A stretch of 64,000 bases of DNA from Aestuariimicrobium sp. p3-SID1156 (GTDB lineage: Bacteria; Actinomycetota; Actinomycetes; Propionibacteriales; Propionibacteriaceae). Within the stretch, counting starts at the first letter, position 1. Every line of letters begins with the position of its first letter. Shown one piece after another: positions 25,442-42,309 of this stretch. The notes under the pieces are model-generated. The model made no database searches. It had not been told where the DNA came from and worked only from the letters and a program-made list of their open reading frames with translations. Made by a program: the position numbers and the translations under genes. Location: the NCBI RefSeq assembly GCF_025144225.1, contig NZ_JALXXB010000003.1, positions 124,001 to 188,000 of the forward strand. The letters run 5' to 3'.

Positions 25442-25464
25442 TGTTGCTCGGGGCCGATCAGCTG

Positions 25465-25498
25465 CCAGTTCTCATCCAGTTGTCGTTCCAGTTCTCAC
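25465..25498 (+). repeat. Left-end repeats of the Tn7-like element
   Basis: Two TTCTCA(T/C) units 23 bp apart flank a GTTGTCGTTCC segment. The reverse complement of each unit matches the GTGAGA units of the right boundary. Bases 25475-25498 recur exactly at 42152-42175. They are inferred to be transposase-binding sites. Confidence 0.65.
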
Positions 25499-25505
25499 TT
25501 GCCTG

Positions 25506-27806
25506 TCACTGCGCTTGGACTGAGTTGGTCACACCGTAGACGAGGGTGTCCAGTGCGTCGCGGAACGCTTGGGGGTCAGCGAGCAGGGCACGTGGCTCGT
25601 CGGACAGCTTGAGGTCCCGGCTGATCCTGCGCATAGCGTCCAGCACGCTGTCGGCCTCTGCTGCGTCACGTGGGAGTTGCGCTTCGATGCCCTCCAGCAG
25701 CGCGGTGGCTTCGTTCTTGCGGATGGCGTTCGGGTGGTCCCGCACGAAGTTCTTGCGAAGCCGTTTGAGGATGGTCGAAATCTTCGCGTGGGCGTGGTCG
25801 CGCATGGCCTCGCGCTGCTTCTGTTCGATCACTGCCAGGAGCGGTCGGAAGTTCTCGTACAACTCGCTCTGGATCTTCTTGGTTGCCTCCTTGTCCAGAG
25901 CGAGGTCGATGACGCTTCGCGCGAAGGCGACCTTGTCGAGCCCCAACGGTCGCGTGAGCCCGGCGCTCGTGCTGGCATCTTTCGATGCGGCCTGCAGCCG
26001 TTTGAACAGCTTCTGCCCCGCCTCGGCTTTGACGGGCTTCCATGCTGCACAGAACTTCTCTGCGTCCTGTCGTGAGAGGACGGTCTTTGCGAGTTGCTGG
26101 ACGGCGTCGTTGGCGAGGGAGATGGGGATGAGGTCTTCCAGTTCCTCGATCCCTTCTCGGTCGTCACCTTCGTCGGTCGCGGCGACGGTGAACACGAGAG
26201 AGTCGGGCAGGAGTCCCTCCATGTCGCGGATCGCCTCGGCTGCATCCAGTCCGTCCTTGTCGTTGTCGACGAGGACGAGGACGGCGGGTTTGTCCTCATC
26301 GCGGCCTCGTGCGAGGTAGGCCATGTAAGGAACGTTCCCTGACCCGCCGCAGGGGACGAGGGTGAGCGTGTTCAGGTCGAGAGCGTTGCCGTTGGGCGCG
26401 ATCTTGCGGGCGACGGAGCTTGCGCCTGCGAGGAGGACCGGGTCGGCTTGGCCCTCCACCAGCAGGTTGCAGGCGCTGATGAACGTCGTTTCTGCGACGA
26501 ACCCACCCAGAGCGGTACGCAGTGGCTCGTAGTGGTTACGTCCTGCGTTCTTGACTACCCGCGTGCCTTCCTCGCCCTCGCCTTTCTCCAACACGCGGAT
26601 GCGCTCGGCGTGATTCTTGTCGATCAGGAACGGTGAATGGGTCACGTAGACGACCTGCACGGGGTCGCTGTCGTCTTCTGGGTGAGCGAATGCCTCGAAG
26701 ATGCGCAGGAGGTCTTGTTGGCCCGAGTTGGACAGGAACGCGTCTGGCTCGTCCATGAGCAGCAGCAAACCCTCCTCGTCCGGGTCGTGGGACAGGTACT
26801 GGACGAAGTAGCTGAGGAAGTACTTCAGCCCTTGGCTTCGTTCCTTGAACGTGTAGTCGCTTCCGGTGCGGTCGCGGATCGTGAACACGAGATCGAAGTC
26901 CCGCAGGCGCAGACGGAGGGCGAAGTCCGTGTCTTGTGTCCACCAGCGCTTGAAGTTCAGGGAATCCGCGAGCTTCTGGTTCATCTTGTCCACCAGCGCC
27001 TCGGCGTAACCCTCTGAGGTGTGGACCGCGGTCTTCAGTTCCGCGAACTCGCCTTCGGTGATCCCAGCCACGTCCGTGAGCAGGCGGCGGGCGAGTTCCC
27101 ACTGCCCGAGCAGTTCGTCGTCGGGGTTCTCATCTGGCCCGTCGTAGGTTGGGCGGTTCGCCCCGGAGGCCGCCGCTTCCAGCGATTCGGGGTGTTCACG
27201 GACCCAACGCATACGGTCCAGCCATGCCGGCCGGGTGCGGCTCTTGCTGTTCTGCTCCCCAGCGAGGTAGGCGATCTCGATGCTGTCCGGCAAGGGGATG
27301 CGAGCGTCGATGCGGAACGACTTCGGCAGCACAACGGTAGAGGGCAACGCCTCCAACTCTTCGCTCTCATCACCCACGTAGACAACCACCCGGTCATGGA
27401 AGCGGAACAAATGGAACGACTCGAAGTCAGCCAGTTCCCAGTCTTTGATGCCTGCGACGGCGGCACGTTCCTCATCGGTCAGGTCTACGAACTCGCCCCC
27501 GAACTCGGGCAGGTCGGGTGCGTCGTCCTCGTTGAACTCAGTGGAGTACCGGCAGAAGTCCTCCTTACCAGCACCTTCGCCCGTCAGTAGCGCTTCGATC
27601 GCGTACAACAACTGGCTCTTTCCGGCCTCGTTCGCGCCGACCACCGTTGTCACGTCGGACTCCAGAGGGATACGCACGAACGGGAAGAACTTGCTGTCCT
27701 CCCCCAGTTCGTCCCACGCGTCCGGCTCCGCCCCGTCGCGGCTCTTGCGCAGGTAGTCGAAGTTGAAGGACCGGAAGAACCGGATGTACAGCGTCTTGAG
27801 TCTCAT
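25506..27806 (-). CDS. OLD-family ATPase/TOPRIM nuclease
   Basis: This 766-aa protein has an N-terminal SMC/ABC-like ATPase with Walker A GANEAGKSQ (Lys63), a signature-like FKERSQGLKYF, Walker B LLLLMDEPDAFLS and an H-loop YVTHSPFLID. A C-terminal TOPRIM nuclease follows, with LLVEGQADPVLLAG and VLVDNDKDG as the conserved Glu and DxD blocks. This is the class 1 OLD architecture shared by phage P2 Old, GajA and AriA, which degrade nucleic acid or act on anti-phage triggers. No UvrD-like GajB or reverse transcriptase neighbour is present, so Gabija or a retron is not supported. Its stop lies 8 bases from the element's left-end repeat. Defence is inferred. Confidence 0.85.
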   Translation of the reverse strand: MRLKTLYIRFFRSFNFDYLRKSRDGAEPDAWDELGEDSKFFPFVRIPLESDVTTVVGANEAGKSQLLYAIEALLTGEGAGKEDFCRYSTEFNEDDAPDLPEFGGEFVDLTDEERAAVAGIKDWELADFESFHLFRFHDRVVVYVGDESEELEALPSTVVLPKSFRIDARIPLPDSIEIAYLAGEQNSKSRTRPAWLDRMRWVREHPESLEAAASGANRPTYDGPDENPDDELLGQWELARRLLTDVAGITEGEFAELKTAVHTSEGYAEALVDKMNQKLADSLNFKRWWTQDTDFALRLRLRDFDLVFTIRDRTGSDYTFKERSQGLKYFLSYFVQYLSHDPDEEGLLLLMDEPDAFLSNSGQQDLLRIFEAFAHPEDDSDPVQVVYVTHSPFLIDKNHAERIRVLEKGEGEEGTRVVKNAGRNHYEPLRTALGGFVAETTFISACNLLVEGQADPVLLAGASSVARKIAPNGNALDLNTLTLVPCGGSGNVPYMAYLARGRDEDKPAVLVLVDNDKDGLDAAEAIRDMEGLLPDSLVFTVAATDEGDDREGIEELEDLIPISLANDAVQQLAKTVLSRQDAEKFCAAWKPVKAEAGQKLFKRLQAASKDASTSAGLTRPLGLDKVAFARSVIDLALDKEATKKIQSELYENFRPLLAVIEQKQREAMRDHAHAKISTILKRLRKNFVRDHPNAIRKNEATALLEGIEAQLPRDAAEADSVLDAMRRISRDLKLSDEPRALLADPQAFRDALDTLVYGVTNSVQAQ

Positions 27807-27842
27807 GTTCCGCCTATCTCGTCAGCCACGTTTGGTCGGCTG

Positions 27843-27858
27843 AGATCAGGCTATCGAC
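27843..27858 (-). promoter_or_regulatory. Promoter motif shared by the OLD nuclease and hsdM
   Basis: Minus-strand GTCGATAGCCTGATCT lies 36 nt upstream of the OLD start. It recurs with one change 17 nt upstream of hsdM (35822-35837). The inner TAGCCT could be the -10. Confidence 0.5.
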
Positions 27859-27880
27859 TCGCCCTGACAAACCTGCCTGG

Positions 27881-28345
27881 CTACTCCTTCAGGCCGTCGC
27901 TGTCGTCGTCGTCATCCAGCGGGCGGAGCATGTCCAGGTACTCGTCGTCGGTCATGTCCGGTGCCCACACGTCACCGGACACGTGATGCAGCCACTGGTC
28001 ACGCTCCTGCCAGTCCAGCCCGTGCGGGGAGTCCAGCTCCCGCAGCGCGTCGAAGTCGGCGGGCACGTACGTGGTTGAGTCGTCCGTGTCTGCGGGGTTC
28101 CATTCGTGCGCAGCCCACCACTCCTCCAACGACACCCCAGCCGGGATGGTGAGGTGAGTCCCATCCGCGATCAGATGCCTGTTCCCCGCGCCGTCCGTCC
28201 ATGTCGTGGTCGGCTGCGTCTCGGGGCAGGTCGCGCATTGCTCCCACCGCACCATGTCCCCCGTGGCGCGGTTCCCGAGGGTGATGATCTCGTGGACATG
28301 CCCGCCGCTTGGGGCGGCTTCCACCGGGGTGTCATGTCCGAGCAC
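27881..28345 (-). CDS. Hypothetical cargo protein
   Basis: I do not recognise this 154-aa protein. It contains a CATCPET Cys pair, aromatic-rich EEWWAAHEWNPAD and a very acidic C-terminal tail with five consecutive Asp. No membrane segment is seen. The GTG at 28345 is chosen because a palindromic promoter-like sequence sits immediately upstream; the frame stays open to 28513, but that would translate the palindrome. It lies upstream of the OLD nuclease gene on the same strand with a 74-base gap. Confidence 0.55.
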   Translation of the reverse strand: MLGHDTPVEAAPSGGHVHEIITLGNRATGDMVRWEQCATCPETQPTTTWTDGAGNRHLIADGTHLTIPAGVSLEEWWAAHEWNPADTDDSTTYVPADFDALRELDSPHGLDWQERDQWLHHVSGDVWAPDMTDDEYLDMLRPLDDDDDSDGLKE

Positions 28346-28351
28346 CAGTCG

Positions 28352-28375
28352 ACCATAGCGTCCTAGATATAGGAC
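28352..28375 (-). promoter_or_regulatory. Palindromic promoter/operator, copy 1
   Basis: On the minus strand GTCCTA-TATC-TAGGAC is a perfect inverted repeat followed by a CTATGG. A near copy (21 of 24 bases) lies upstream of tnsA at 37031-37054. It is a probable shared operator overlapping a -10. Confidence 0.55.
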
Positions 28376-28424
28376 GGCACCATTCCCATGCGGCGTCCAG
28401 CTGTGCTGAGTCGAACGGAGCGAT

Positions 28425-28841
28425 TCACTCGGTCGCTGCGCGTTTGGCCGCGCATACGCTACGGCTGATCTCCTCGGCTCGGGCTTCGGTAACGAGACTG
28501 GAACACAACACACGCTCGTCGCCAGTGTCGGTCACGATAACTAGCATCGTCCCGGTGCGTGCTTGTGCTGGGTCGCGAACCAGTCGAGCGCCGCGCACCG
28601 ATGTCCACGGGATACGTCGGGTTCCGAAGCGCTGCAGCACGAGAGCATCTCCATCGGCCCACACGCCCGAGTACCAAAGGCTGAGGCCCACCCGTACGGC
28701 AACCACACCAACGGTCACGGGAATGGCGACCAGCGGAAACACAACCAGAGGCAGTTCCCCCACGATCACGCTCGCCAGCAACCCGAAGGTGAAGAACCCC
28801 GTCACGGCCACAGACATGAGCGTCCACACGACCGCGAACAC
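28425..28841 (-). CDS. Small membrane protein with PH-like domain
   Basis: This 138-aa protein has two N-terminal transmembrane segments (VVWTLMSVAVTGFFTFGLLA and LPLVVFPLVAIPVTVGVVAV) followed by a soluble part reading GDALVLQRFGTRRIPWTSVRGARLV. That is the pattern of bacterial PH-domain (DUF2581-like) membrane proteins. Function is unknown. It sits alone among the cargo genes, so a role in the nearby defence genes cannot be claimed. No clear Shine-Dalgarno was seen before the start. Confidence 0.6.
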   Translation of the reverse strand: MFAVVWTLMSVAVTGFFTFGLLASVIVGELPLVVFPLVAIPVTVGVVAVRVGLSLWYSGVWADGDALVLQRFGTRRIPWTSVRGARLVRDPAQARTGTMLVIVTDTGDERVLCSSLVTEARAEEISRSVCAAKRAATE

Positions 28842-28970
28842 GCGGACGATGGCAGGGGGCCGTTACAGCTCGGTCACGATCGGGACACTGTCACGGGGAG
28901 CATGACGTTTCCCTAACGCCCAGCAGTAGGAAGGGTCCGAGCGAGAGGGACCGTCCTACGATTCTGGCTG

Positions 28971-30161
28971 CTACTTCTTGTGCATAGCGCTCCACGCGAC
29001 CAGGCCCACTGCGATCGTCAAAGCACGGACAGCGTTGGCTTTCGTGAACTTCTGTGGCGCGGCCGCGTGGATTGTCCCGTTTCTGGAGTAGAGCGGTGAG
29101 TTGTTCGGTGTCTGGTACGCAGCAGCGAGCGGGGCGTGGACCCCGGACTCGAAAAGGTCGTCCAGGCTGTCGCTATCGAGCAGATCCTTCTCGTCCTTCA
29201 CCAGCGTCTTAGCGTAGGTCACCGCTTTGCCGGCCTTGCCTGCGGCTTGGCTTATGGCCGTGTCCCACACGGCTGTGCTGAGCGCTTGGCTCGCAGCGGG
29301 ATAGCCGCCACGGAGCGCCGCGACAGCCTCCATGAGTAACGTCGCCAGCCCGGTCAGTGCGGGCTTGGTCTCGATGACTTTCCCGAGCACGCCCTCGAAG
29401 TAGGCCCAGTCCGGTTCAGCGAACCCTGCTAGCAGCTCGTCCACTTTCTGTTGGTCGGTGTCGGCGGCGAGCACTTCACGGACGCGTTCGGGTGAGAGCG
29501 CATAGAAGACACCAAGCTTGTGCGGGACAGCTAGGAGCGCGAGTTTGAGCAGGTCGGTGACGCTCAGTCCGCGGACGTTCTCTGGGACCCGTCGTTCGAT
29601 GTTCTCCCGCAGACGGGAGATCAGGTCTGGGTCAACCTGTAGCGACTGTTGCAGCCGCTCAACGATGCGTCTGACGTTCTCATCAAGGTCCGGCTTCGTT
29701 GCCGCGAGGATTCCCTTGGCGAGTTGCGCATAACTCTCCGACAGGTCCTTGTTCAGCTTCGCGAACGACGCGTCGAATGTCAGGCGAGGGAGGCGCTGGT
29801 ACACGTCCAACGCGGGGAACCCACGCGCGGCCTGCCGGGCGATCTCGGCGTATCTGTCGTTCATGGTCGGCATGTTCTGCAGGATGCGCCGGATCTCGGC
29901 CTGCGGGAACGCGCTGGCCCGGGCTGCCATGTCTTGGATGGCGCGGAGCTGCGCCGGAGGTATGCCTGACGGGTTTCGCCGTTTCGGTTCCGGGGCTACG
30001 TCGCCCTGGTCGTTCTTCGACCCATCCCCGCGGGTCTTCTCGCCTTCCGCGTCGGCATCGTCAGACGTTGCGAAAGCGTCAGATTCGTCCTTACCGTCAC
30101 TCGGCACGGGCGACTCCTCGCCTTCCAGGTTCTCCCCGTTGGCGCCGTCAGCGTCGTTCAT
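28971..30161 (-). CDS. Fourth gene of the type I R-M operon, putative tail-anchored protein
   Basis: I do not recognise this 396-aa protein. The first ~65 residues are acidic and low complexity (many Asp, Glu, Ser). The middle is helical (RRILQNMPTMNDRYAEIARQA, LRENIERRVPENVRGLS). The extreme C-terminus, RALTIAVGLVAWSAMHKK, is hydrophobic with a basic end, as in a tail anchor. Its ATG lies 2 bases after the hsdR stop, so translation is coupled to the R-M operon. It might be an auxiliary defence effector or a control factor; nothing in the sequence decides this. Confidence 0.7.
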   Translation of the reverse strand: MNDADGANGENLEGEESPVPSDGKDESDAFATSDDADAEGEKTRGDGSKNDQGDVAPEPKRRNPSGIPPAQLRAIQDMAARASAFPQAEIRRILQNMPTMNDRYAEIARQAARGFPALDVYQRLPRLTFDASFAKLNKDLSESYAQLAKGILAATKPDLDENVRRIVERLQQSLQVDPDLISRLRENIERRVPENVRGLSVTDLLKLALLAVPHKLGVFYALSPERVREVLAADTDQQKVDELLAGFAEPDWAYFEGVLGKVIETKPALTGLATLLMEAVAALRGGYPAASQALSTAVWDTAISQAAGKAGKAVTYAKTLVKDEKDLLDSDSLDDLFESGVHAPLAAAYQTPNNSPLYSRNGTIHAAAPQKFTKANAVRALTIAVGLVAWSAMHKK

Positions 30162-30163
30162 GG

Positions 30164-33100
30164 TCAGTAGTTCTCTCTGACGTACGCGTAGGCGTGGTCG
30201 AACAGGTCGCCTGTGAGCGGGAGGGCGTACTTCTTCAGGACGGAGCGGAGTTCCTTGCGGACGGTCCGGTCCCCGGACTGGTTCTCCGCCCACCCGGAGT
30301 AGGAAACCTGTTTGACGATGGTGTCAATGTCGTGCACCACATCATCGACGACGACGGGGGTGCCGTCTGGTTTGTATTCGTTCACGATCTGGGTGAGCGC
30401 GCCAATGTTCGGGTCAAGCAGATGCGCCGCCTGGTCCAGTTGACCGTCCGCTTCCAACCGCTCAGCCTTCACCGCCGTTTTCGCTACGTCGAGGGCCTTT
30501 TTCAGGAACTCGACGCTGTCGGCGGCGGACTGCACGGCCTGCTGGCGGAGCTTTTCGATCTGTTCTGCGAGGGTGCCGTAGACGGGGTGCCCGTTGGAGG
30601 CGTGGAGGCGTTTCTTGATGCGCGCGTCGATCGTGTCCAGCACCTCGTCCAGCGTGATCGGCTGCTTCGCGTAGTCCCGGTCGGGGTCAAGGTCAAGGGT
30701 GCCTTGCTCAGCGAGTTTGCGGAGCGCGTCGATGCTGTCCGGGTCAACGATCACTTCCTCCAGCCCGGTGCCGGTGACGGCGACGTTGGTGATGTGCCCG
30801 TGCACGAGCGCGAGTGTTTTCGCGCCCAACCTGTGCCAAAGCAACGCGTCGGAGACCTTCGACGGGCGGGACGCCTCATAGACTTGGGCGAGCCATTTGT
30901 AGTCGGCCTCGTGCGGTTTCAGGTCGTCATGGGGCCACAGGAACTCCCACAGGGTTTGCACGGCGGTGAACTCGCGTGCGTACGCGTCCCGCTGAGTTGT
31001 GTCTTTCACGCGTTCAAGCGCGGCGGACAGCGCGTCGTAGGAATGGTCGGTCCGGTCGATCCCGTCGAACCGGGCCAGACACGCGGCGAGTTTCGTGGTG
31101 AACTCCGCTGCGAGGGTGTTCACGTCCACGGGTCGTTTCCCGCCCGCTTCCGGGTCCGCGGCCTTCAACGCTTGCGCGATCTGGTTGCCCACACCGATGT
31201 AGTCCACGACCAGGCCGTTGTTCTTCTCCTGCCCCGTGACCGGGTTCGTGTACCTGCGGTTCGTGCGGGTGATCGCTTGGAACAGCGTGTGCCGACGCAA
31301 CGGCTTATCCAGATACAGGACCTGCTCAATCGGTGCGTCGAACCCGGTGAGCAGTTTCGCGGTCACGACCAGCAGCGTCGGCTCCACTGCGGGTTTGTTG
31401 AACCGGGCTTTGATGTCCGCTTCCTGCTGCCGCGTCAACGCATACTTGGCCCACTCGGCAGGGTCGTCCTTCCCGCCCGCGGTCATTACCACCGCTGTCC
31501 CGTATGGCAGGCCGCGCTCGCCGATGAGCCGGTTCAGTTCGGTCTCGTACGCGACAACGAGTTCACGGTCGTAGGCGACGACTTGGCCTTTCATGCCGAG
31601 CGGGGCGACCTTCGCTTCGTAGTGGTCGAGAATGTCGCCACACACAGCGGCGACCCGGTCCGGGTTGAGCAGGAGCGTTTTCACGTGTGCTGCCCGACCG
31701 GCGAGCACGTCGCGTTCCTCGTCGGTGAGGTTCTCCTCGTTCGCGAACTCATCGAACGCTTGGTCGAGCGCGTCCTTGTCCAAATGCCAGTTGATCAGGC
31801 GGGTTTCCACATGCACAGGCACGGATGCGCCGTCCACGATGGAACGCTCCATGCTGTACGTGTTCAACACGCTGCCGGGGTCGGCCTCGTGACCGAACAG
31901 TTTGAACGTGTTCTTGTCCTTGTCCGAGATAGGCGTACCTGTCAGGCCGAAGAACCGGGCGTTCGGGAGAGCGGCCCGCATGAGATCCCCGAGCTGGCCT
32001 TCTTGGGTGCGGTGCGCCTCGTCAACCATGACGATGATGTTGTCCCGGTCGTTCAGGACACCGGCGTCCTCGAACCGGAAGATCGTGGTCACCACAATCC
32101 CGCGTTTGTCGTCGGTGAGCGCTTTCGTGAGCTCCGCCTTCGACCCCGCGACCGTGAGCCGGGGCAGGCCCACGGTGCGGAACTGCCGCTCCACCTGCTC
32201 GACCAAGTCGAGCCGGTCGAGCACGACCAGCACGGTCGGCCCGCCCACGTTGTCGTCGTTGAGGAGCATGAGCGCCGCGAACCCCATGAGCAGGGTCTTA
32301 CCCGTGCCCTGGTAGTGCCAGATGAGGCCCTTCTGGCCCCCGTCGAGCACGCGCTGGTGGATCGCCTCCGCGGCCTCCACTTGCGGGTACCTGGGGATGA
32401 GCTTGCGCTTCCCACCGTCCGGGGTTGCCTCAAACAGCGTGAAGTCCCGCAGGATCGACAACACCCGCGCTGGCGTCAACAGCAACTCCACGGAGCGTCT
32501 GACCCGCGGCATCCCGTCCAAGTAGTACGGGTCCTGTGTGGACCCCCACATGAGCCAATGCTCGCCCGGTTGCCCGACCGCGCCGTAATGGAACTCCTTC
32601 CCGTCCGTCGCCGCGCACAGCACGTTCGGAGCGAAGAACGTCGGCCCCTCCACGCTGTACACGTTCGCAATGTCCCGTGCCCCGTTCAACCACGACACCG
32701 ACGAGTTCACCGGGGTCTTCGTCTCGATCACGACCAGCGGGATGCCGTTCACCCACAACACCACGTCATAGCGACGCTCCCGACCGGGCGGCCCGAACGT
32801 CACCTCATCGGAGACCACAAAGTCGTTCTCGCCCAGCTTCTCGAAGTCGATCAGCCGCAACGGAACGTACTTGTCCGTGCCGACGTACTTGACCGTGTGA
32901 TCCCCACGCAACAGGGTCACCATCGCCTCGTTCGCAGGCACCAGCCCATCCGTCGCCGCCGCGAGCACCCGTGCGCGGATCTCCGGCAGCACCTCATCCA
33001 CACGTTCGGGGAACCCGTGCAGGTCGTTGTTCAGGACCTCCAACGCTTCAATGAGCGTGTCCTCCACGATCACGTCCGTGCGCTCACGAGCGAGCTTGTC

Positions 33101-33187
33101 CCCCGGCACGTACGTCCACCCCAGCTCAACCAGCCGCTCCACAAGCCACGCCTGCACGGTGCGTACCTCTGAGAATCCCTTGCTCAT
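30164..33187 (-). CDS. hsdR: Type I restriction endonuclease, R subunit
   Basis: This 1007-aa subunit has an N-terminal PD-(D/E)xK nuclease (RRYDVVLWVNGIPLVVIETKT, with the Asp and the ExK pair). The SF2 translocase motor has Walker A YQGTGKTLLM, the DEAH box VMVDEAHR, motif III GLTGTPI and motif VI QAITRTNRRY. In complex with HsdM and HsdS it cuts unmodified foreign DNA after translocation. The ATG overlaps the hsdS stop by ATGA, and the TGA is 2 bases before the next gene, so the operon is hsdM-hsdS-hsdR-orf. Confidence 0.93.
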   Translation of the reverse strand: MSKGFSEVRTVQAWLVERLVELGWTYVPGDKLARERTDVIVEDTLIEALEVLNNDLHGFPERVDEVLPEIRARVLAAATDGLVPANEAMVTLLRGDHTVKYVGTDKYVPLRLIDFEKLGENDFVVSDEVTFGPPGRERRYDVVLWVNGIPLVVIETKTPVNSSVSWLNGARDIANVYSVEGPTFFAPNVLCAATDGKEFHYGAVGQPGEHWLMWGSTQDPYYLDGMPRVRRSVELLLTPARVLSILRDFTLFEATPDGGKRKLIPRYPQVEAAEAIHQRVLDGGQKGLIWHYQGTGKTLLMGFAALMLLNDDNVGGPTVLVVLDRLDLVEQVERQFRTVGLPRLTVAGSKAELTKALTDDKRGIVVTTIFRFEDAGVLNDRDNIIVMVDEAHRTQEGQLGDLMRAALPNARFFGLTGTPISDKDKNTFKLFGHEADPGSVLNTYSMERSIVDGASVPVHVETRLINWHLDKDALDQAFDEFANEENLTDEERDVLAGRAAHVKTLLLNPDRVAAVCGDILDHYEAKVAPLGMKGQVVAYDRELVVAYETELNRLIGERGLPYGTAVVMTAGGKDDPAEWAKYALTRQQEADIKARFNKPAVEPTLLVVTAKLLTGFDAPIEQVLYLDKPLRRHTLFQAITRTNRRYTNPVTGQEKNNGLVVDYIGVGNQIAQALKAADPEAGGKRPVDVNTLAAEFTTKLAACLARFDGIDRTDHSYDALSAALERVKDTTQRDAYAREFTAVQTLWEFLWPHDDLKPHEADYKWLAQVYEASRPSKVSDALLWHRLGAKTLALVHGHITNVAVTGTGLEEVIVDPDSIDALRKLAEQGTLDLDPDRDYAKQPITLDEVLDTIDARIKKRLHASNGHPVYGTLAEQIEKLRQQAVQSAADSVEFLKKALDVAKTAVKAERLEADGQLDQAAHLLDPNIGALTQIVNEYKPDGTPVVVDDVVHDIDTIVKQVSYSGWAENQSGDRTVRKELRSVLKKYALPLTGDLFDHAYAYVRENY

Positions 33188-34332
33188 GCTGCTCCTTGGT
33201 CGGTTCCCCATCCGGGCGCCAGAGTCGCGCTGACGATGGCCTCTCTAACGCGGCCCAGCGCCTCACGTTCTGCAAACAGAGCGCGCGCGTGCTGACGCGT
33301 TGCCGCCAGGGCGCCCTCAAGAACGTCGCCTGCCGTCAGCCATGAGGGCATTGACATGCTTCCAACGAGCTTGAGATTCAGGGAAGGAACCGCGCCGGAT
33401 TGCACGTAGTCACTGAGGTATAGAACCTCCAAGCAGGCCAACAACTCCTCCGGTGAGACGCCGGGGCGAGGTGTAACCACGATGTGGTTCTCGTCCACCG
33501 CCGCGTCAACGTCGAGGATGCGTTTTTTCTCCGTGAGCACCGCAGCCCCGACGCGGGGAAAGACAACCGAGCCGAGCGGGGCTACACGCCCGCCGAGCCG
33601 AACAATCTCCGTGGAATCCAGTTGAGTGGCGGCAGCGGTGTACCCGAACAAGTTCTTGGCCGTGGTCATGTCCGCAATCTTGAACCAAGATACCGAGCCG
33701 GTGCGGCGCCCTTGCACAGCCTTTGGGAGACTCTTGCCCTGCGTGACGGATGCCAAGGAGCCGAGCGGTATCCGGTCGCACCCCGCCGATTGGGATGCTA
33801 CGAGCGACCTGCGGAGTTTGGCTAAGTGACTGCTCTCGTCAGACAGGGTGGCTTGGTGCTCACTCACAGCGTCCAGGCGAGCACCGAGCTTCGCGATTTC
33901 CTCGGTCTCAGGCGCTCGCAGACGGATCGTGAGAATGTCGCGTGCAGCAGTGCGGGGCATCCTGCTGCCTGTGCTGACCGCCACCGCGTGCTGGATTACA
34001 TGGTCCGAGCTGAGCAGGGTGTGCAGGAAGCGGCTGGAAACGCCCTGTCGAGGTCGAAACACCAGAATCTCGGGAGAACAGAACCCCGCCCTGTCGGCAA
34101 CTGCCACCTTGCGCAGGTAGGGCCTCAGCCGCCCGAACAGCACGTCGCCAGCCTCGAAGGGAACGACGGTCCCCGTTGTGTCGCGCGCCTCGCCCCAGGC
34201 CGCGGGAACGTCCAACTTGGACGCCAGGTGCTCCAAGCCCAGATACGGCGCGTCGGTCGGAGGATCGGACCGTTTCGCTGAGACGAGTTCAGCCATGTCT
34301 GCGATCGAGACGGCTTCGCTTGCACAGCTCAT
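33184..34332 (-). CDS. hsdS: Type I R-M specificity subunit
   Basis: This 382-aa protein has two target-recognition halves. The first contains YLGLEHLASKLDVP and GDVLFGRLRPYLRKV; the second contains LGSLASVTQGKSL, SWFKIADMTTAKN and GSVVFPRVGAAVLTEKK. Coiled segments at about residues 155-180 and at the C-terminus set the distance between half-sites. The two halves recognise the two parts of a bipartite DNA target. ATGA overlaps join it to both hsdM and hsdR. The halves are dissimilar, so the target is probably asymmetric. Confidence 0.9.
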   Translation of the reverse strand: MSCASEAVSIADMAELVSAKRSDPPTDAPYLGLEHLASKLDVPAAWGEARDTTGTVVPFEAGDVLFGRLRPYLRKVAVADRAGFCSPEILVFRPRQGVSSRFLHTLLSSDHVIQHAVAVSTGSRMPRTAARDILTIRLRAPETEEIAKLGARLDAVSEHQATLSDESSHLAKLRRSLVASQSAGCDRIPLGSLASVTQGKSLPKAVQGRRTGSVSWFKIADMTTAKNLFGYTAAATQLDSTEIVRLGGRVAPLGSVVFPRVGAAVLTEKKRILDVDAAVDENHIVVTPRPGVSPEELLACLEVLYLSDYVQSGAVPSLNLKLVGSMSMPSWLTAGDVLEGALAATRQHARALFAEREALGRVREAIVSATLAPGWGTDQGAA

Positions 34333-35804
34333 TTCGTCCCGTACGCGCTCAGGACGGCCTGAAGGTGGGCGTCTGTGTCGACACGGACTTCACGAGCGAT
34401 CGAGTATTCGGCAAGCGCCTCCTCCACCGATGGGACTTCATCTTCCGCTCTCTCCAAGTACCGTCCAGGGTTGAGGTCGCAACCATTCGCCAGAATCTCC
34501 GCTAACGGAACAACGCGACTTCGAACCTGTTGCGCCTCCCCACGTTGTCCGAACGCTTTCAGCACGTCGTCGACGTTCTGGTCGGACAGTTGGTTCTGGT
34601 TCCTGCCCCTTTCGTACAGCGATGCGGCATCAACGAACAGGACGTGACCAGCGTCCTCCGTCGATTTATCGGCGCGGAACAGCAGAAGGCAGGCGGGGAT
34701 CGTCGTTGAGTAGAAGAGGTTGGGCGCCAGGACGATTACCGCTTCCAACATGTCCTGCTTCACGATGCAGGTGCGTATGGCAGCCTCCGCTTGGCGGAAG
34801 AGCACGCCGTGCGGCATCACCACGCCCACTCGACCGCGGTCTCGCGACGTTGACGCCAGCATGTGCTGAATCCACGCCCAGTCACCAAAGCCTGCGGGTG
34901 GTACCCCGCAGAACGCACGAGGGTCCGACGCCCATGTCTCGTGACCCCAGTTCGTGAGGGAAAAGGGCGGGTTGGCGATGACCACATCGAACTGGCTGAG
35001 CGACCCGTCAGGGTTGCGGAGCGCGGGTTGGCGGAGGGTGTCGCCGCGGGCGATTTTGAAGTCCTCAATGTCGTGCAGGAACAGGTTCATGCGCGCGATC
35101 GCGGACGTGGTGAGGTTCACCTCTTGCCCGTACAGGCGCAGCGTGCGGGTGTCCCCGCCGTCCTCACGGACGGTGTTGATCGTCTCCACGAGCATCCCGC
35201 CGGTCCCGCAGGCGGGGTCGTACACGGACTCGCCGGGTTGCGGGTCAAGCAAGCGGACGAGAAGTTTCACGACCTGGCGTGGGGTGAAGAACTCGCCCGC
35301 TTTCACACCGGACTGGTCTGCGAAGTTCTTCAGCAGGTATTCGTAGGCTTGGCCGAGCATGTCGTGGGTGACTTCGTCGGGGTTGAGGACGAGCCCGTCG
35401 AACGCGCTGATGAGGTTCACGAGCGCGTGCTCGGGGAGCCGGTCCTTGTTGCCCCAGGATGCGTCTCCGAAGATGCCCGCGAGCGTGTCAGGGTTGGCTT
35501 GCTGGATGCGGCCGAGCGCGGTGTTGATCTTCGCGCCAAGGTTGCTGGTCGCTTTGGTCACCTGGTCCCAGTGGGTGCCGTCAGGGACGGTGAAGCGGTG
35601 GAAGTCGGCTTCGACTTCGGGGTCCACGTCCGGGCCGTACTCGGCGACTGCTTGGTTGCGTTCCCACGTGTACGTGTCGCTGATCCACTTCCAGAACAGC
35701 ATGGGGAACACGTAGGTCTTGAAGTCTGCTGGTTCGACCGGCCCGCGGAGCGCGTTCGCTGCGGCCCAGAGCCGTGTTTCGAGCTCGGGCAGGGTGATCG
35801 TCAT
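34329..35804 (-). CDS. hsdM: Type I R-M adenine methyltransferase subunit
   Basis: This 491-aa N6-adenine methyltransferase has an N-terminal helical domain (ELETRLWAAANALRG), SAM-binding motif I DPACGTGGML and catalytic motif IV ANPPF. It methylates the host recognition site and forms M2S with HsdS. The ATG at 35804 is selected because the family usually begins MTITLPELE-like and because the conserved promoter motif lies just upstream. An ATG at 35864 would place that motif inside the gene. Confidence 0.93.
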   Translation of the reverse strand: MTITLPELETRLWAAANALRGPVEPADFKTYVFPMLFWKWISDTYTWERNQAVAEYGPDVDPEVEADFHRFTVPDGTHWDQVTKATSNLGAKINTALGRIQQANPDTLAGIFGDASWGNKDRLPEHALVNLISAFDGLVLNPDEVTHDMLGQAYEYLLKNFADQSGVKAGEFFTPRQVVKLLVRLLDPQPGESVYDPACGTGGMLVETINTVREDGGDTRTLRLYGQEVNLTTSAIARMNLFLHDIEDFKIARGDTLRQPALRNPDGSLSQFDVVIANPPFSLTNWGHETWASDPRAFCGVPPAGFGDWAWIQHMLASTSRDRGRVGVVMPHGVLFRQAEAAIRTCIVKQDMLEAVIVLAPNLFYSTTIPACLLLFRADKSTEDAGHVLFVDAASLYERGRNQNQLSDQNVDDVLKAFGQRGEAQQVRSRVVPLAEILANGCDLNPGRYLERAEDEVPSVEEALAEYSIAREVRVDTDAHLQAVLSAYGTK

Positions 35805-35821
35805 GGTGTTCCCGTTCACGT

Positions 35822-35837
35822 AGGTCAGGCTATCGAC
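35822..35837 (-). promoter_or_regulatory. Promoter motif shared by hsdM and the OLD nuclease
   Basis: Minus-strand GTCGATAGCCTGACCT matches the motif upstream of the OLD gene at 15 of 16 positions and lies 17 nt before the hsdM ATG. Confidence 0.5.
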
Positions 35838-35911
35838 CGTGAACGTATCGGCCGGGACCGACATTCACGGACGGCCAGCCGCACAGGCCGTGACCGCGGA
35901 CCGGGGTTGGG

Positions 35912-36379: not shown

Positions 36380-36391
36380 GGCACTCGCTGG

Positions 36392-36525: not shown

Positions 36526-36620
36526 TCGAGCTGTCCGTCCGGTTCGCGATCGTCGATGGCATGACGAACACGCAGAACTTCAACAGGAGGAACCGCACAC
36601 CAGGCGGTCAGCCGATGCGC

Positions 36621-36944
36621 CTAGTTGGTGGGGTTGTGTCCGGGCCAGAGGGCGGTGTTGAGCGCGACTTCCAGGCGGGCAACGGCGCGGGTGTCCGGCC
36701 AACGGTTCCCGTGCTGGATCACTTGGACGGTACCGACGCCAATGCCGGCGAGTTTCGCGACCGCACGAGCGGACAGCCCACGTTCGGCCATGACCGTTGT
36801 GAGCGTGGCGGCGAGCTGGCGGACCTTCTCCGCAGCGGGGTCTGGACTGACCCCTTCGGGCCAGTTCGGCAGGCCGTCGTTGGGCGCGGCACGCAGCGGG
36901 AGGGTTCTCTCCCGTGGCGTCGACGCGTTGGTCTGCTCACTCAC
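36621..36944 (-). CDS. XRE-type helix-turn-helix regulator
   Basis: This 107-aa protein has a C-terminal HTH (LTTVMAERGLSARAVAKLAG, then GVGTVQVIQHGNRWPDT) preceded by a ~45-residue Pro-rich leader. The GTG at 36944 has AAGGTGG about 5 nt upstream and is preferred over 36992. The gene is divergent from tnsA, and the 119-base space between them holds a palindromic operator. Control of the transposition operon is a reasonable inference. Confidence 0.75.
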   Translation of the reverse strand: MSEQTNASTPRERTLPLRAAPNDGLPNWPEGVSPDPAAEKVRQLAATLTTVMAERGLSARAVAKLAGIGVGTVQVIQHGNRWPDTRAVARLEVALNTALWPGHNPTN

Positions 36945-37030
36945 GTGGACCACCTTACGGAGGTGGGCGGACGAGGTGGCCCGTCCGTTCATGTTGGGAC
37001 TTGCGTCCGGAGGAGACGGGACGGGAGGGT

Positions 37031-37054
37031 GTCCTATATCTCGGACACTATGGG
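37031..37054 (+). promoter_or_regulatory. Palindromic promoter/operator of the tns operon, copy 2
   Basis: GTGTCC-TATATCTC-GGACAC (arms from 37029) is a dyad overlapping a TATATC-like -10. It ends just before the GGGAGG ribosome-binding site of tnsA and matches the copy at 28352-28375. Confidence 0.55.
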
Positions 37055-37063
37055 AGGTTTTGG

Positions 37064-37762
37064 ATGCCCGTCAGCCTCGTACACGATCCACAAGAACTAC
37101 TCACCCTGCATGGTCCACCCGACGACGGAACAGCCATGAACGGGTCCCTGTACGACCTCGGCATCCCCTACCCCATCTGGGACAACCAACCCACCCCAGC
37201 GCAAGCGTCCGCCCGGACCGCGACACGGCAAGGCCGGCAAGTTCACGCGACCATCGCCAGGCTCGCGCCCCTCATCCCCTACACCGGGGAGGACGACGAC
37301 CTCATCGAAGCCGCCGTGGCCGTGTTCGTCGCCGGTCGCGAGAACGGGAACCTGCGTCGTGCCCGCATCCGCGTGTCCGGGCTCGTCCGCCAATACCTGC
37401 GCCTCTACCTGCCCCACACAGCCTCGTTCCAAGGATCTGAGGTGCCCGCACGGGGTGGCCGCGCTGACCTGCTCTGGTCCCACCCCGTCGCGGGCTGGTT
37501 CTACGACGAACTGAAAACCACCCAAGGGCATGATCCGCTCACCGCTGCCGTGCTCGCCCAAGTGGACCGGTATGTCGACGCAGGCATTGACTGCTTCGGG
37601 GACTCGTTCACGGGTGTCCGGCTCATCACCTTGGGTCAACGTTCCGAGTCGCGGATCATCCGCCCGACCGGCGAAGTCGCGCCATTGTTCGGCTCCGAAC
37701 TCGACCCCGCCAACCTGACAACCGAGCACGGGACGAACTCCAGCGTTGGGGGTGGCCTGTGA
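37064..37762 (+). CDS. tnsA: TnsA-like transposase endonuclease subunit
   Basis: This 232-aa protein has a restriction-like catalytic core. RGGRADLLW supplies Asp135, and FYDELKTTQG supplies Glu149 and Lys151, giving D-(13)-ExK, comparable to D114-(15)-QxK of Tn7 TnsA. A conserved Glu in GEDDDLIEAAVAVF could be the additional acidic residue. TnsA cuts the 5' ends of the element so that transposition is cut-and-paste. GGGAGG lies 8 nt before the ATG. The stop overlaps tnsB by GTGA. Confidence 0.75.
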   Translation: MPVSLVHDPQELLTLHGPPDDGTAMNGSLYDLGIPYPIWDNQPTPAQASARTATRQGRQVHATIARLAPLIPYTGEDDDLIEAAVAVFVAGRENGNLRRARIRVSGLVRQYLRLYLPHTASFQGSEVPARGGRADLLWSHPVAGWFYDELKTTQGHDPLTAAVLAQVDRYVDAGIDCFGDSFTGVRLITLGQRSESRIIRPTGEVAPLFGSELDPANLTTEHGTNSSVGGGL

Positions 37763-39422
37763 CCGCGCATGTAGCCACCGACTCCGTGGAAGCGGCAGTA
37801 GACCAGCTCGTCCGTCTCGGCATCGGATCAGCCACGTTCACCGACCATGTGAAGCAAGTCGCGGAACGTCACGGCGTGACCGAACGCACCGTCTACCGCT
37901 GGCTCGCCGCCCGCCCCGCCAACACCACTGACGACCAGGCCGCCGCCCCTGTGGACGACGCGGAAACCGTGGACGAACTCATCCACGGGCACGGCGAACC
38001 CGAACCGATCAGTGTCCCGCCTCGCCGGTCCCGTTTCGAGATCGACACCCTCCACTTGGCCGTCTACGCCCACTGCCGAGACGCGCACACCACATGGAGC
38101 CTGCTCACCCGGAAAGGAATCGTTGACGTGTCCTACCCCACGTTCATGCGCGCCATCCAGCGCACTGACCCCGCCCGTGTCGCCGGAGCCCTTGAGGGCT
38201 ACCAAGGGCTGGTGCGGAACCGTCAGTACCTGCGCCGTGTCGCCCCGCACCGCAACCACACCCTTCACGCCGACCACACCGACGCTGACGTGTGGGTCAT
38301 CGCTGACCATCGCAGCAGCACCCCCATCAGGCCGGGCCTGACCGTCACCACAGACGGTTACTCCGGCCTGATTCACGCGTTCCTGTGGCCGACCCGCCCG
38401 ACCGGAGAAATGGTCGCCGCCGCCCTGATCGAAACCGCCGCGAAGCACGACTACCACGGGATCACGCTCGGCGGTGTGCCCGAACAGTTGGTCGTGGACA
38501 ACGGCGGGGAGAACCTTGCTGGTGTTGTTACCGACGCCGCCAAGAAGCTCGGCTGGATCATCAGTCCCTCCGCGCCGTATAGCTCGTGGATGAACGGGAA
38601 AGCCGAACGCGCCGTCCAGCTCGTCAACGACCGCCTCTCAGCGCGAGCGCCCGGTTACCTGCACGGCGGCGTCACCCGTGAACGGCAGCGCCGGTTGTGG
38701 CGAACCTTCGCAAGGACGCGGACCCGGAACGCATGTGGAGCATGGCAACGCTGCAGGCCGCGCTCACCGAAGTGGTAGACGAAATCAACACGACCATTCG
38801 TGTTGAGCGGCTGGGCGGGATGACCCGGTTGGAGGCGTACGCCGCAGACCCGACCGAGCAGCGTTTCGTCTCCGAAGCTGAACTGCGGGACGCGATGCTC
38901 AGCCCCAGCAAGCACACGTACATGGTCACCAAGAGCGGCATCCAGTTCGGCAAAGCCCACTACGTCTTACCTGGCGCGCACGTCGGCAAGCGGTACCGCA
39001 TTCGGCATCTGCCCGCGGGCCGCGACTTCATTGAGGTGTTCACCAAGGACGACGAATACGTCGGTCGGGCATGGCGGGTGGATCGTCTCTCCGAGCAGGA
39101 GCATCGCGCGTTCATGGACGCCCGCTCGGAGGTGGAGCGGGAGAACCGCGCGATCACCGCTGGCGCTGTCCACTTCCGCAACCGCGTCGCAGCGTCCGCG
39201 AAACGCCTCGACACCCTCGCAGGCGGCCCCGACCTGGACACCGACACGGACGACGTGGTGCTCCCCGATCCGGTCCCCGCACCCAAGCGTGGCCGCAAAC
39301 GCCGCACCAAGCCCAACACGGGCAAGGACAACACCGCGAAGGCTACGGAGCCTGCCTTGACCGACTCCCTCGACTTGGGGGCGCTCACCGAAATGTTCGG
39401 TGACACGCTCCCCGGCGGGTAG
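37759..39422 (+). pseudogene. tnsB: TnsB-like DDE transposase, frame broken near 38700
   Basis: The first frame (from GTG at 37759) encodes an N-terminal HTH (VAERHGVTERTVYRWLAAR) and an rve core with Asp172 (HADHTD), Asp247 (VVDNGGE) and Glu283 (NGKAERA), a D,D(35)E site. The conserved reading then moves to the -1 frame, open from 38682, giving NLRKDADPERMWSMATLQ, LGGMTRLEAYAADP and a Mu-type C-terminal beta-barrel, ending 39422. Adding one G after 38700 fuses the two as RRLWANLRKD. A one-base deletion or sequencing error is most likely; no slippery heptamer is present. The separate downstream piece could start at GTG 38697 but would be a catalytically empty fragment. Confidence 0.8.
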
Positions 39423-39440
39423 CAAGAAAGGACACCTGTT

Positions 39441-40193
39441 ATGGCACTCACGAACCGAGCCCAGATACCCCTGTCAGCGCTGCTGCCCGGCACACCGACG
39501 AGTACCCCGTCGTTCGCGGCAGCGCACGTGAAGATGCGCGCCGTCGCCGCGTCACGCCGGATCATGGCGATCGACGGACAGCCAGGCACTGGCAAGTCCA
39601 CATGCGCGGTCTACACCGCTGACGTGGAGAAGGTCCCGGCGGCTGTCGTCACCATGACCCACCGGCCCGCGCCGTTGGACGTGCTCCGCTACACCTACCA
39701 GGCCGTGGCAGGCGGACCAGCCCCAGAGGGAAGCCATTACGCGCTCGGGAACGAAGTGCGTGACCTGCTCGCCGACTGGAAGGGCATCCTCGTCATTGAC
39801 GAGTTGCAGAACTGCAAGGCCAACGCCCTTCAAGAGCTCGTCTGGTTGCATGAGACAACCCAAGGCGCGTTCACGCTCGTGGTCGTCGGTTCAGGCGTGC
39901 ACGCCGCGTTGCATCAGTACCCGCAACTGCGTTCACGGGTCATGGCGTTCGCCACGTTTGAACGCCTCAAAGGCGACCACGTGCTCACCGCAGCCCGCCA
40001 CCTGCACCCCGGATTGGTGGGCACGCCCGGTCGGGAGATTCACCGCCATGACGCGTTGTTCGCTCACGGTCTCATGCGTGACTGGGCTACAACGGCGACG
40101 TGGTTGCGGGCGTTGGGCGTGAACGACCGGACTGTCACAGCGGAGGATCTGGCGGCTGTCCGGGCGGCGATCAGCGCAGGTGATGCAGCATGA
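39441..40193 (+). CDS. tnsC: TnsC/TniB-like AAA+ ATPase
   Basis: This 250-aa ATPase has Walker A GQPGTGKST (Lys52), Walker B ILVIDELQN (Asp120-Glu121) and a sensor-1 region LVVVGSGVHAAL. It resembles the MuB/TniB/TnsC regulators that polymerise on target DNA and recruit the transposase. It starts 18 bases after tnsB, with GAAAGG 8-9 nt before the ATG, and its stop overlaps the next gene by ATGA. The short N-terminus fits TniB more than Tn7 TnsC. Confidence 0.82.
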   Translation: MALTNRAQIPLSALLPGTPTSTPSFAAAHVKMRAVAASRRIMAIDGQPGTGKSTCAVYTADVEKVPAAVVTMTHRPAPLDVLRYTYQAVAGGPAPEGSHYALGNEVRDLLADWKGILVIDELQNCKANALQELVWLHETTQGAFTLVVVGSGVHAALHQYPQLRSRVMAFATFERLKGDHVLTAARHLHPGLVGTPGREIHRHDALFAHGLMRDWATTATWLRALGVNDRTVTAEDLAAVRAAISAGDAA

Positions 40194-40840
40194 GCGCCCG
40201 CTTGTTCCTCGTCCCGAATGAGGTTACGTCTGCGCTGGCGCGTGACAGGCGTGGCCCTGACGACGGGCTGCTCATCATCACCGCCAGGCCGCACCGCAAC
40301 CAGTACGCCCTGCACATGGATCTGCTGGCTGGTTTGGGCGCACGTGATGACGTGTTCTGCGCGTCGAAGAAGCCCGGCCCGGAACGTGAACTCATGCTGC
40401 TCCAGTCATGGATCGTCGCCCACCGCATCCGGCTGGTCGTTGTCGCGCACGCGGACATGATCCCCATGCCGCAATGGTTCGGCCCTGTCACCGACGCGGT
40501 GGAAGCCGCTGGGGCGGTCCTCGCACTCGTCTGTGACGACGACATCGACCCTGCTCGCATAGCCGCGTGGCTGGACTCCGTTGAGGGGATCAGCGGCGAC
40601 GTCAACGACCTACAAGCGCTCCTGCCCGCATCCGCCCCGCACCCCGTGACCGAACCGGACGTTGGCCCTCCCAACGACACGGACGACTTCCCTGTGTTGC
40701 TGCCGCAGGCCGCGTTCTACCTGTTCCGTGCCCGCTGCCGCGACCTGCTCCCCGTGAACGAGTTCGAGCAAGTCGACGCCCTGTACCGGGAAGCTTTCAC
40801 CCTCTTCCTGACATGCCCGACCCGACAGCGGACAGGGTAG
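40190..40840 (+). CDS. Transposition-operon protein of unknown function
   Basis: I do not recognise this 216-aa protein. Successive hydrophobic strands (GLLIITARP, RLVVVAHADMI, GAVLALVCDDDID) alternate with helices, as in a Rossmann or P-loop fold, but no Walker A is present. A degenerate paralogue of the upstream ATPase is one possibility. It overlaps tnsC by 4 bases and the next gene by 28, so it is a core part of the operon. Confidence 0.65.
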   Translation: MSARLFLVPNEVTSALARDRRGPDDGLLIITARPHRNQYALHMDLLAGLGARDDVFCASKKPGPERELMLLQSWIVAHRIRLVVVAHADMIPMPQWFGPVTDAVEAAGAVLALVCDDDIDPARIAAWLDSVEGISGDVNDLQALLPASAPHPVTEPDVGPPNDTDDFPVLLPQAAFYLFRARCRDLLPVNEFEQVDALYREAFTLFLTCPTRQRTG

Positions 40841-41403
40841 GGGCGCAGATCGTCGCCTCTGCGGCGTCGTTCACGTGCGCAGGGCAGGCATACACGTTCG
40901 TTCGCGCGGCGCAGGCGGCGTTGTTCACACGAGGGCTGCGGCTACGCGTTCACATCGATCCGTTGCTGCGCGCGGTCCGTGACGATGAACACCGGCCCGC
41001 CACCCCAGCAGAGCTGAAGGCGATGCGTGCCTACCGGGAACCGTGGATTCCGGTAGCCGCAGTGGTCCGCAACATGGAGTTGGAGTTCCTCAACATGAAG
41101 AACATGAAGCTCCGCAACGTCGACGAAGAAGGCCGTTACACCCAGCGTGGCCTGAATCGCGGCGTCCCAGACGGAGCCCGCGTGCTTCTCCGCGCCCAAC
41201 GCCACCTGCGCATCCTTGAAGGAGCCGGACCAGATGATCGGTTCCTCACCCAAGACTCCACCGCTATCGCGGAAGCGTTCCGTCGCGTGAAGATCGACCT
41301 GAACCTGCCCGGCATCCAGAACCAACGCCGCCCGGTGGACAACACATGGCAGGACAAACTCCGCATAGGCGTGCTGCCCCTTGCCGGACGTGATACCCCA
41401 TGA
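40813..41403 (+). CDS. Possible inactive tyrosine-recombinase-like target selector
   Basis: The order of elements in this 196-aa protein recalls a tyrosine recombinase. TPAELKAMRAYREP precedes a segment ending ELEFLNMKNMKLRNVDEEG, at the place of the usual SELLxLxWxDID. Then come GVPDGARVLLRAQRHLR, GPDDRFLTQ and AIAEAFRRVKIDLNLPGI. The catalytic Arg is not evident, and the HxLR, H/W and Tyr elements are absent. TnsF of Tn6022-like elements is an inactivated tyrosine recombinase that chooses comM, so a selector role is attractive. The similarity is judged by eye. The last codons overlap the next gene by ATGA. Confidence 0.55.
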   Translation: MPDPTADRVGAQIVASAASFTCAGQAYTFVRAAQAALFTRGLRLRVHIDPLLRAVRDDEHRPATPAELKAMRAYREPWIPVAAVVRNMELEFLNMKNMKLRNVDEEGRYTQRGLNRGVPDGARVLLRAQRHLRILEGAGPDDRFLTQDSTAIAEAFRRVKIDLNLPGIQNQRRPVDNTWQDKLRIGVLPLAGRDTP

Positions 41404-42098
41404 GCCGATCCGTTCAGCGCGTGAACGTGGACAAGATCCGTGACGCCTACCATCGGCTCGGGCTAACCGAACGCGAACTGCAACGCCGCGCCGGACTCGG
41501 CGCGGGCGCGACCCGCAGCGTCCTCCTGAACGGGCATATTCACGCCACCACGTCCCTCGCCCGCGTCCGACGATTCATCAACGAACTCGGCCTCACCTGG
41601 GGCGACCTGCTCGATGACCCGCAACCGGAAACACCAACCGTCTACCTGGACCCGACCGACCGGCAAGCAGCCCTCGCACGCCTCATCACCACCAGCAAAG
41701 GGGCCGTGTCCCTAGACCATCTCGCTGTCGTTTTCGGTGTCACCATCGCGGACATTCGAGCGGATCTCGACACCCTCGCAGCGCCTCTCGCTGCGCTCGG
41801 GTTCCGCCTGATCCACACCGAAGACTGCAGCGTCATCCTCAACCGAGGGAAAGACCCCAACGCCGACGACGCCGCAAAACGCCTCGCCTTCCTTCGTGAC
41901 GCCGAAGCGGACCTGAACGTCAGCGCAACACGCACCCTCTACCGTGCCTACGCCGACACGCTCTCCACCCGCGAGCTCGGCAACAACGACCGAGTCCAAG
42001 TCGGCATGCTCGTCAACCGCGGAGCACTCCAACCGCCGACCCCCAACCATCGCGCGGCCCTCACCAACGACACCCGCTACTGCCTGACGATCGACTGA
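41400..42098 (+). CDS. Double helix-turn-helix protein of the transposition operon
   Basis: This 232-aa protein starts with a XRE-like HTH (KIRDAYHRLGLTERELQRRAG, ARVRRFINELGLTWGDLL). After a linker comes a winged-helix-like segment (LARLITTSKGAVSLDHLAVVF, VTIADIRADLDTLAAPLAALG). The C-terminus contains a helical ATRTLYRAYADTLSTREL. It may bind target or end DNA, or act as operon regulator. It is the last gene before a hairpin and the right-end repeats. Confidence 0.65.
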   Translation: MSRSVQRVNVDKIRDAYHRLGLTERELQRRAGLGAGATRSVLLNGHIHATTSLARVRRFINELGLTWGDLLDDPQPETPTVYLDPTDRQAALARLITTSKGAVSLDHLAVVFGVTIADIRADLDTLAAPLAALGFRLIHTEDCSVILNRGKDPNADDAAKRLAFLRDAEADLNVSATRTLYRAYADTLSTRELGNNDRVQVGMLVNRGALQPPTPNHRAALTNDTRYCLTID

Positions 42099-42115
42099 CC
42101 CCATAGACGGCAACA

Positions 42116-42142
42116 CCCCGGCCCGCACGAAGCGGACCGGGG
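42116..42142 (+). terminator. Hairpin terminator of the tns operon
   Basis: Arms of 11 bp (CCCCGGCCCGC against GCGGACCGGGG, one mismatch) with a 5-nt loop lie 18 bases after the last gene of the operon. Confidence 0.7.
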
Positions 42143-42144
42143 AA

Positions 42145-42175
42145 GTTGTCGTCCAGTTGTCGTTCCAGTTCTCAC
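42145..42175 (+). repeat. Internal direct copy of the left-end repeat
   Basis: Bases 42152-42175 are identical to 25475-25498 (24 nt) and have the same orientation. An additional AGTTGTCGTCC unit precedes them. The orientation is opposite to that expected for a right end. Confidence 0.85.
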
Positions 42176-42230
42176 CAGCCGCCCAGGCCGGTGAACCCTT
42201 CTCCCACAACGGGTTTCACCCTGTCGTGAA

Positions 42231-42309
42231 GTGAGAATCCACTGACATTTACGTGAGAATCCACTGACATTTGGTGAGATTCTGGCGACTTTTCAGTGAG
42301 AACTTGCTT
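42231..42309 (+). repeat. Right-end array of four GTGAGA repeats
   Basis: Units begin at 42231, 42253, 42274 and 42296 (spacing 22, 21, 22). The first two share GTGAGAATCCACTGACATTT exactly, the third reads GTGAGATTCTGGCGACTTTT and the fourth GTGAGAACTTGCTT. This matches the tandem ~22-bp TnsB sites at a Tn7 right end. The array stops at the nrdJ stop codon. Confidence 0.75.

Follow-up and report, generated by a model that had tools for sequence, protein, structure and literature searches.

What placed a TnsABC element exactly against the stop codon of nrdJ, and which of its proteins could have selected that site? The locus is carried by the window, i.e. the whole 64-kb stretch of Aestuariimicrobium sp. 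p3-SID1156 DNA that was analysed; all element coordinates are window positions. Considered overall, the element probably belongs to a TnsABC transposon family with the 3′ end of nrdJ as its homing site, with targeting proposed to rely on a protein here called g56. For the homing component, comparison of sequences makes the case almost certain. Genomes (G) and loci (L) are designated by handles only where they must be distinguished.

The limits of the element (25463-42308, 16,846 bp) and the 5-bp duplication TCAGC at both of its ends are given by the two junctions, from which they were read. The left junction reads ...GGGGCCGA TCAGC followed by TGCCAGTTCTCATCC; the right one reads ...GTGAGAACTTGCT followed by TCAGC TGCAGCC. 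TCAGC corresponds to the nrdJ stop codon (42309-42311, minus strand), which is TCA on the plus strand, then GC. nrdJ is intact because the right copy of TCAGC holds its stop codon; the left copy remains beside the displaced host hairpin. A sequence-only reading of the window had described an island with TnsA-, TnsB- and TnsC-like genes between the terminator of a DUF2853 gene and the nrdJ stop, with a right-end repeat array abutting that stop. These features are present, and the limits can now be given exactly. CAGCTG, which was ascribed to the last nrdJ codons, does recur at the left boundary; it is composed of the TCAGC duplication and the element's own TG end.

The right-end array comprises two identical 20-mers and one degenerate copy and extends to the nrdJ stop codon. 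The right terminus of this element is CT (CA in 19/23 elements). The left-end consensus (≤3 mismatches) occurs once in the window, and from its sequence the island reads as one insertion. A block resembling the left end lies, in the same orientation, within the right end (42144-42180); similar blocks are found in the right ends of G001 and G042.

An empty-site comparison, set as a check beforehand, identified a relative (G207) in which the joined flanks of a 19,869-bp element (G221) align from base 7 to base 800 (82%). This site lacks the element and has TCAGC only once; 19 bases of the query, immediately preceding TCAGC, are absent. Such a near-full-length alignment was found in G207 alone among 112 genomes; in G206, G197, G247, G255 and G300 the alignment starts at base 414-416 and runs to base 800, covering hairpin and junction. 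A hairpin (stem ≥7) was found within 80 bp of the nrdJ stop in 24 of the 30 best nrdJ matches of 174 genomes, the same anatomy as that obtained by joining the window flanks. These comparisons show that insertion occurs at the nrdJ stop codon with duplication of TCAGC, the nrdJ-side copy supplying the stop, and that the host hairpin is displaced to the far side of the element. A G+C-rich hairpin in the right end (42116-42142) is proposed to replace it as nrdJ terminator; a terminator scan requiring a T tract found none there.

The relatives were collected in several ways. A TnsC search of a protein collection gave 21 relatives. A scan of genome contigs gave nine loci, in six of which a convergent nrdJ follows (L001, L002, L005-L008; L008 without tnsA and tnsB); L003 stops short of nrdJ, L004 breaks off before it and L009, a fragment, is doubtful. 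Further genomes, searched family by family and class by class, yielded matches in at least 8/186, 15/112, 12/294 and 16/394, these counts being lower bounds since only 6 to 24 candidates were scored per genome; five low-scoring genomes (G733, G890, G858, G676, G662) are outside the flank set. After flank retrieval, nrdJ was reached at 24 loci, i.e. 25 with the window. The right-end array touches the nrdJ stop codon at 23 of these 25, located in several families and sharing the same base pair and orientation; arrays were judged by eye; automatic detection was too noisy. Of the 48 rows of the TnsC tree, 28 were assigned to nrdJ by hand and the remaining 20 were not (G004, G153 and G003a were assigned via a split contig or a tandem junction). 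The sequence-only reading had suggested searching relatives of tnsABC for the gene next to the right end: nrdJ was assigned to 15 of the 16 members of the window's TnsC clade (support 0.98), including G004 (split contig), G003a (tandem junction) and G042 (left-end TCAGC only). At L105 and L107 (G917, G647), identical copies of distant TnsC relatives lie near both ends of the largest contig, at most about 13 kb from each. At L191 (G146), the context of the nrdJ stop is TCAAC, not TCAGC, and an element-like array abuts it.

The left ends were examined on both strands of 47 loci (1,706,074 bases). TCAGC precedes all 13 left ends with ≤2 mismatches and none of the seven matches with 3 mismatches. 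The consensus derives partly from TCAGC-led ends; a TCAGC-free pattern was therefore searched in 298 whole genomes. It gave 41 matches, 16 of them after TCAGC (reversed pattern: 14 matches); of the other 25, 24 look like chance and one (G291) like a real end. Six further TCAGC-led left ends were found (G008, G003, G233, two in G004, G286). Phage records gave one short match only, in the nrdJ part, and plasmid records none; viral contigs gave 151 pattern matches with no relative among them. Targeting of the nrdJ 3′ end, as proposed earlier, is thus well supported by the arrays at the stop, the TCAGC-led left ends and the empty site.

The right side of the element carries an operon transcribed towards nrdJ, in the order tnsA, tnsB, tnsC, g56, g7. 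TnsA was recognised through its PD-(D/E)XK residues only, Pfam support being weak; a search of PDB sequences gave weak rows only. In TnsB, the DDE residues (D167, D242, E278) are invariant across 11 aligned sequences. MuB is the only transposition ATPase matched in PDB by the TnsC profile at E 0.01; the P-loop is found in 40/46 TnsC sequences. tnsB and g56 are each one open reading frame (ORF) in most relatives and two frames in the window, owing either to decay or to assembly error. Since both genes are frame-broken, this copy, as sequenced, is probably no longer self-mobile.

The ORFs g5 and g6 of the window correspond in relatives to one protein of about 390-411 amino acids, g56. It combines a TnsC/MuB-like domain without P-loop and a tyrosine-recombinase-like domain without a conserved tyrosine: none is conserved past residue 330 in 74 sequences. 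The N-terminal part matches TnsC (E 2.5e-4) in a profile comparison with a larger alignment; a first comparison of whole g56 was not significant. The relation to tyrosine recombinases is that found by hhalign pairing, which is its only basis because a box I pattern, tried as a recombinase test and dropped, fitted only 6/27 recombinases. The best structural matches are TnsC/MuB for g56, and ScpB and helix-turn-helix (HTH) proteins for g7. No Foldseek match of g56 with E < 0.001 was found in PDB and a viral set; PDB sequence searches gave none for g56 and weak rows only for g7. TniQ was not found in the window element by Pfam scans. In 23 host genomes, its sequence profile (PF06527) has no match within any element; it exceeds the cut-off nowhere in 22 of them, and one has matches outside the element. 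From these profiles, it is probable that the family operates without TniQ.

Transposition could proceed as follows. TnsB (DDE) would bind both ends (the three boxes on the left, the array on the right), TnsA (PD-(D/E)XK) would cut the other strand and the MuB-like TnsC would bridge to the target. Where TnsA accompanies TnsB, which is the case at 20/25 loci, cut-and-paste transposition is likely. g56 and g7 are proposed to select the target: g56, instead of TniQ, would read it, its recombinase-like domain recognising the conserved sequence that encodes the NrdJ C-terminus and its P-loop-less TnsC-like domain docking with TnsC, while g7 would assist or regulate. That g56 is the DNA reader is favoured by a small margin. 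The chances are even for a broader view: a TnsABC branch without TniQ, whose one-protein selector (a dead TnsC-like AAA+ domain joined to a dead tyrosine recombinase) reads the 3′ ends of conserved genes, nrdJ here and dnaB and more in other clades, insertion at nrdJ occurring at a stop codon rebuilt by duplication.

Several observations weigh against tying the family to nrdJ and g56. Clades with the same gene set are located elsewhere: a right-end array lies directly behind dnaB in L080 (G148 contig 7) and abuts the stop codon of a transglycosylase-like gene in L094 (G569), both genes being named by reading of translations in one genome each. Two of the 25 nrdJ loci (G042 and G574) are exceptions to the position of the array. 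G376 belongs to the window's TnsC clade and is not at nrdJ; no left end was found in the 20 kb upstream or in an additional 20 kb on the downstream side, and scanning for inverted repeats revealed no credible ends for G376 or G208. The end in G291 is away from nrdJ, with no window-protein match and no matching right end in 38 kb inward. TnsA was not detected at five of the 25 nrdJ loci, and the lowest E that Foldseek gave for g56 is 0.0048. At several loci separate insertions form tandem arrays, which limits the claim: in G003 TCAGC follows a right end and is itself succeeded by the apparent left end of another element, and the left flanks of the G550, G292, G276, G286 and G003 elements resemble right ends of further elements (by eye). 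The sequence-only reading had named related copies at unrelated sites, or an island built by several insertions, as evidence against itself; the former do exist (dnaB, the transglycosylase gene, G376) and the claim has been narrowed, while the latter applies to several relatives and apparently not to the window. In L320 (G233 contig 18), a left and a right end at nrdJ are separated by 1.36 kb in which nothing matches the window's proteins; this stretch is likely a non-autonomous derivative.

The copies at other gene ends, G376 and G291 might reflect untargeted insertion that is merely tolerated at a neutral position downstream of a needed gene; tandem arrays at one site, and the same base pair and orientation in several families, make this scarcely credible. 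It is hardly more probable that a tyrosine-recombinase island entered at nrdJ with TnsABC as passenger and TCAGC as crossover repeat. The relation of g56 to these recombinases and the same short repeat at both ends would fit, but g56 lacks a conserved tyrosine, the ends are marked by TnsB-type arrays and mostly TG..CA termini, and the repeat is as short as that of Tn7 (5 bp).

A divergent TniQ hidden in g56 or g7, which would make this a conventional Tn7-like element at a new site, is improbable. TniQ proteins are strongly divergent and the structural aligner tests part of each model only; yet PF06527 has no match inside an element, and the best structural matches of both proteins are those given above. 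The TniQ fold is not among the matches listed. Rather unlikely, though less so, is that g7 reads nrdJ and that the role of g56 is limited to regulating TnsC or resolving intermediates. g7 is the last operon gene and has three DNA-binding-type domains; XRE-type HTH proteins are, however, commonly regulators, and g56 has what an adaptor should have, a TnsC-like and a recombinase-like part. As modest evidence, the tree of the g6 domain unites 12 nrdJ elements in a single clade (0.96), which the g7 tree does not.

Tn7 consists of TnsABC plus TnsD, which directs it to glmS. The nrdJ family shares with it the TnsA/B/C set (TnsB DDE, TnsC AAA+), repeat arrays at the ends, a 5-bp duplication and a fixed orientation behind a needed gene that is left intact. 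It differs in its target, in its insertion at the stop codon itself, in its tns operon reading towards the target gene, in its MuB-like TnsC and in that no TniQ/TnsD was found. The parallel with Tn7 drawn earlier thus holds for behaviour and not for the usual selector, absent by sequence search. MuB of phage Mu (MuA/MuB) matches the TnsC of the family, which differs from Mu by a TnsA-like gene and a fixed target site; Pfam scans of the window element found no phage genes.

According to published work, TniQ/TnsD is ubiquitous in the Tn7 branch (PMC10293859) and found in 73-97% per clade (PMC8649781). Among the literature read, the closest published idea is TnsF of Tn6022, a tested target selector at comM with an inactivated tyrosine-recombinase domain (Faure 2023, PMC10293859). 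g56 likewise has an inactivated recombinase-like domain, its selector role being proposed. As described there, TnsF has a short TniQ as partner, N-terminal zinc fingers and an insertion inside comM; g56 has instead a TnsC-like domain, no TniQ partner was found and the target gene is spared. The 74 g56 sequences have no cysteine in columns conserved at 90%, so that zinc fingers of the TnsF type are not recognised. Because a TnsC-like domain is built into a recombinase-like protein, whereas TnsF acts with TniQ, the family is described, from its sequences, as a TnsABC transposon that acts like Tn7 but in which sequence search finds no TniQ. Clade 2 of Tn7-like transposons is dominated by Actinobacteria, experimentally uncharacterised and often has tyrosine resolvases (Benler 2021, PMC8649781); these are shared traits only and do not imply placement in this clade, and the main text of that paper mentions neither nrd nor ribonucleotide. 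No described nrdJ-targeting Tn7-like family was found in the literature searched (main texts, few subscription papers), in line with the sequence-only reading. This actinobacterial family apparently uses an undescribed guide protein in place of that of its known relatives.

The nrdJ stop codon is thereby added, with base-pair precision, as a safe-harbour site. The target is widespread, the nrdJ 3′ region being matched in 174/186 genomes of one actinobacterial family. A candidate TniQ-free selector makes the coupling of Tn7-type transposases to new DNA readers directly testable, and site-specific insertion of large cargo would be useful in actinobacteria.

Table. Features of the nrdJ-associated element and its flanks (window positions)
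Feature	Position	Strand	Basis
DUF2853 gene, host flank outside the element	25062..25379	+	Pfam PF11015 8.1e-27
Host hairpin, probable terminator; would lie directly behind nrdJ in the empty site	25407..25441		inverted repeat
Left target-site duplication TCAGC	25458..25462		junction comparison
Left end, three short boxes TGCCAGTTCTCATCC/AGTTGTCGTTCC/AGTTCTCAC	25463..25498	+	0 mismatches vs left-end consensus
Cargo: AAA ATPase with OLD-like TOPRIM domain (GajA/OLD-like)	25506..27806	-	Pfam AAA_15 4.8e-11, OLD-like_TOPRIM 0.0014; PADLOC GajA 6.3e-15
Cargo: ORF of 440 amino acids	28971..30293	-	no family match in Pfam or PADLOC scans
Cargo: hsdR	30164..33211	-	Pfam and PADLOC scans
Cargo: hsdS	33184..34332	-	PADLOC Specificity_I 2.8e-36
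Cargo: hsdM	34329..35864	-	N6_Mtase 1.4e-95
tnsA-like PD-(D/E)XK endonuclease gene	36914..37762	+	invariant E, D, ExK, Q in 13 aligned sequences; Pfam PDDEXK_1 in 2/13
tnsB, two reading frames (37759-38778, 38697-39422)	37759..39422	+	PDB TnsB 2.4e-32; single ORF in relatives
tnsC, MuB-like AAA+ ATPase	39441..40193	+	Pfam AAA_22 4.5e-11; MuB 2.9e-7
g56, proposed target selector, two frames (40190-40840, 40813-41403)	40190..41403	+	domain comparison (see text)
g7, 232 amino acids, XRE-type HTH and tandem winged helices; candidate selector (second to g56) or regulator	41400..42098	+	structural matches
G+C-rich hairpin in right end, proposed replacement terminator for nrdJ	42116..42142		read from sequence
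Left-end-like block within right end	42144..42180	+	89% to 25467-25503
Right-end array of ~21-bp TnsB-type sites	42231..42308	-	repeat analysis, comparison with relatives
Right target-site duplication TCAGC, contains nrdJ stop codon	42309..42313		junction comparison
nrdJ, target gene, intact	42309..45221	-	Ribonuc_red_lgC 3.6e-149, TSCPD 3.2e-11

The left side of the element carries its cargo: the GajA/OLD-like gene, the ORF of 440 amino acids and a type I restriction system. A 21-nt inverted repeat (36392-36412 / 36505-36525; 95% complementary, spaced by 92 nt) is found near an XRE-type ORF.
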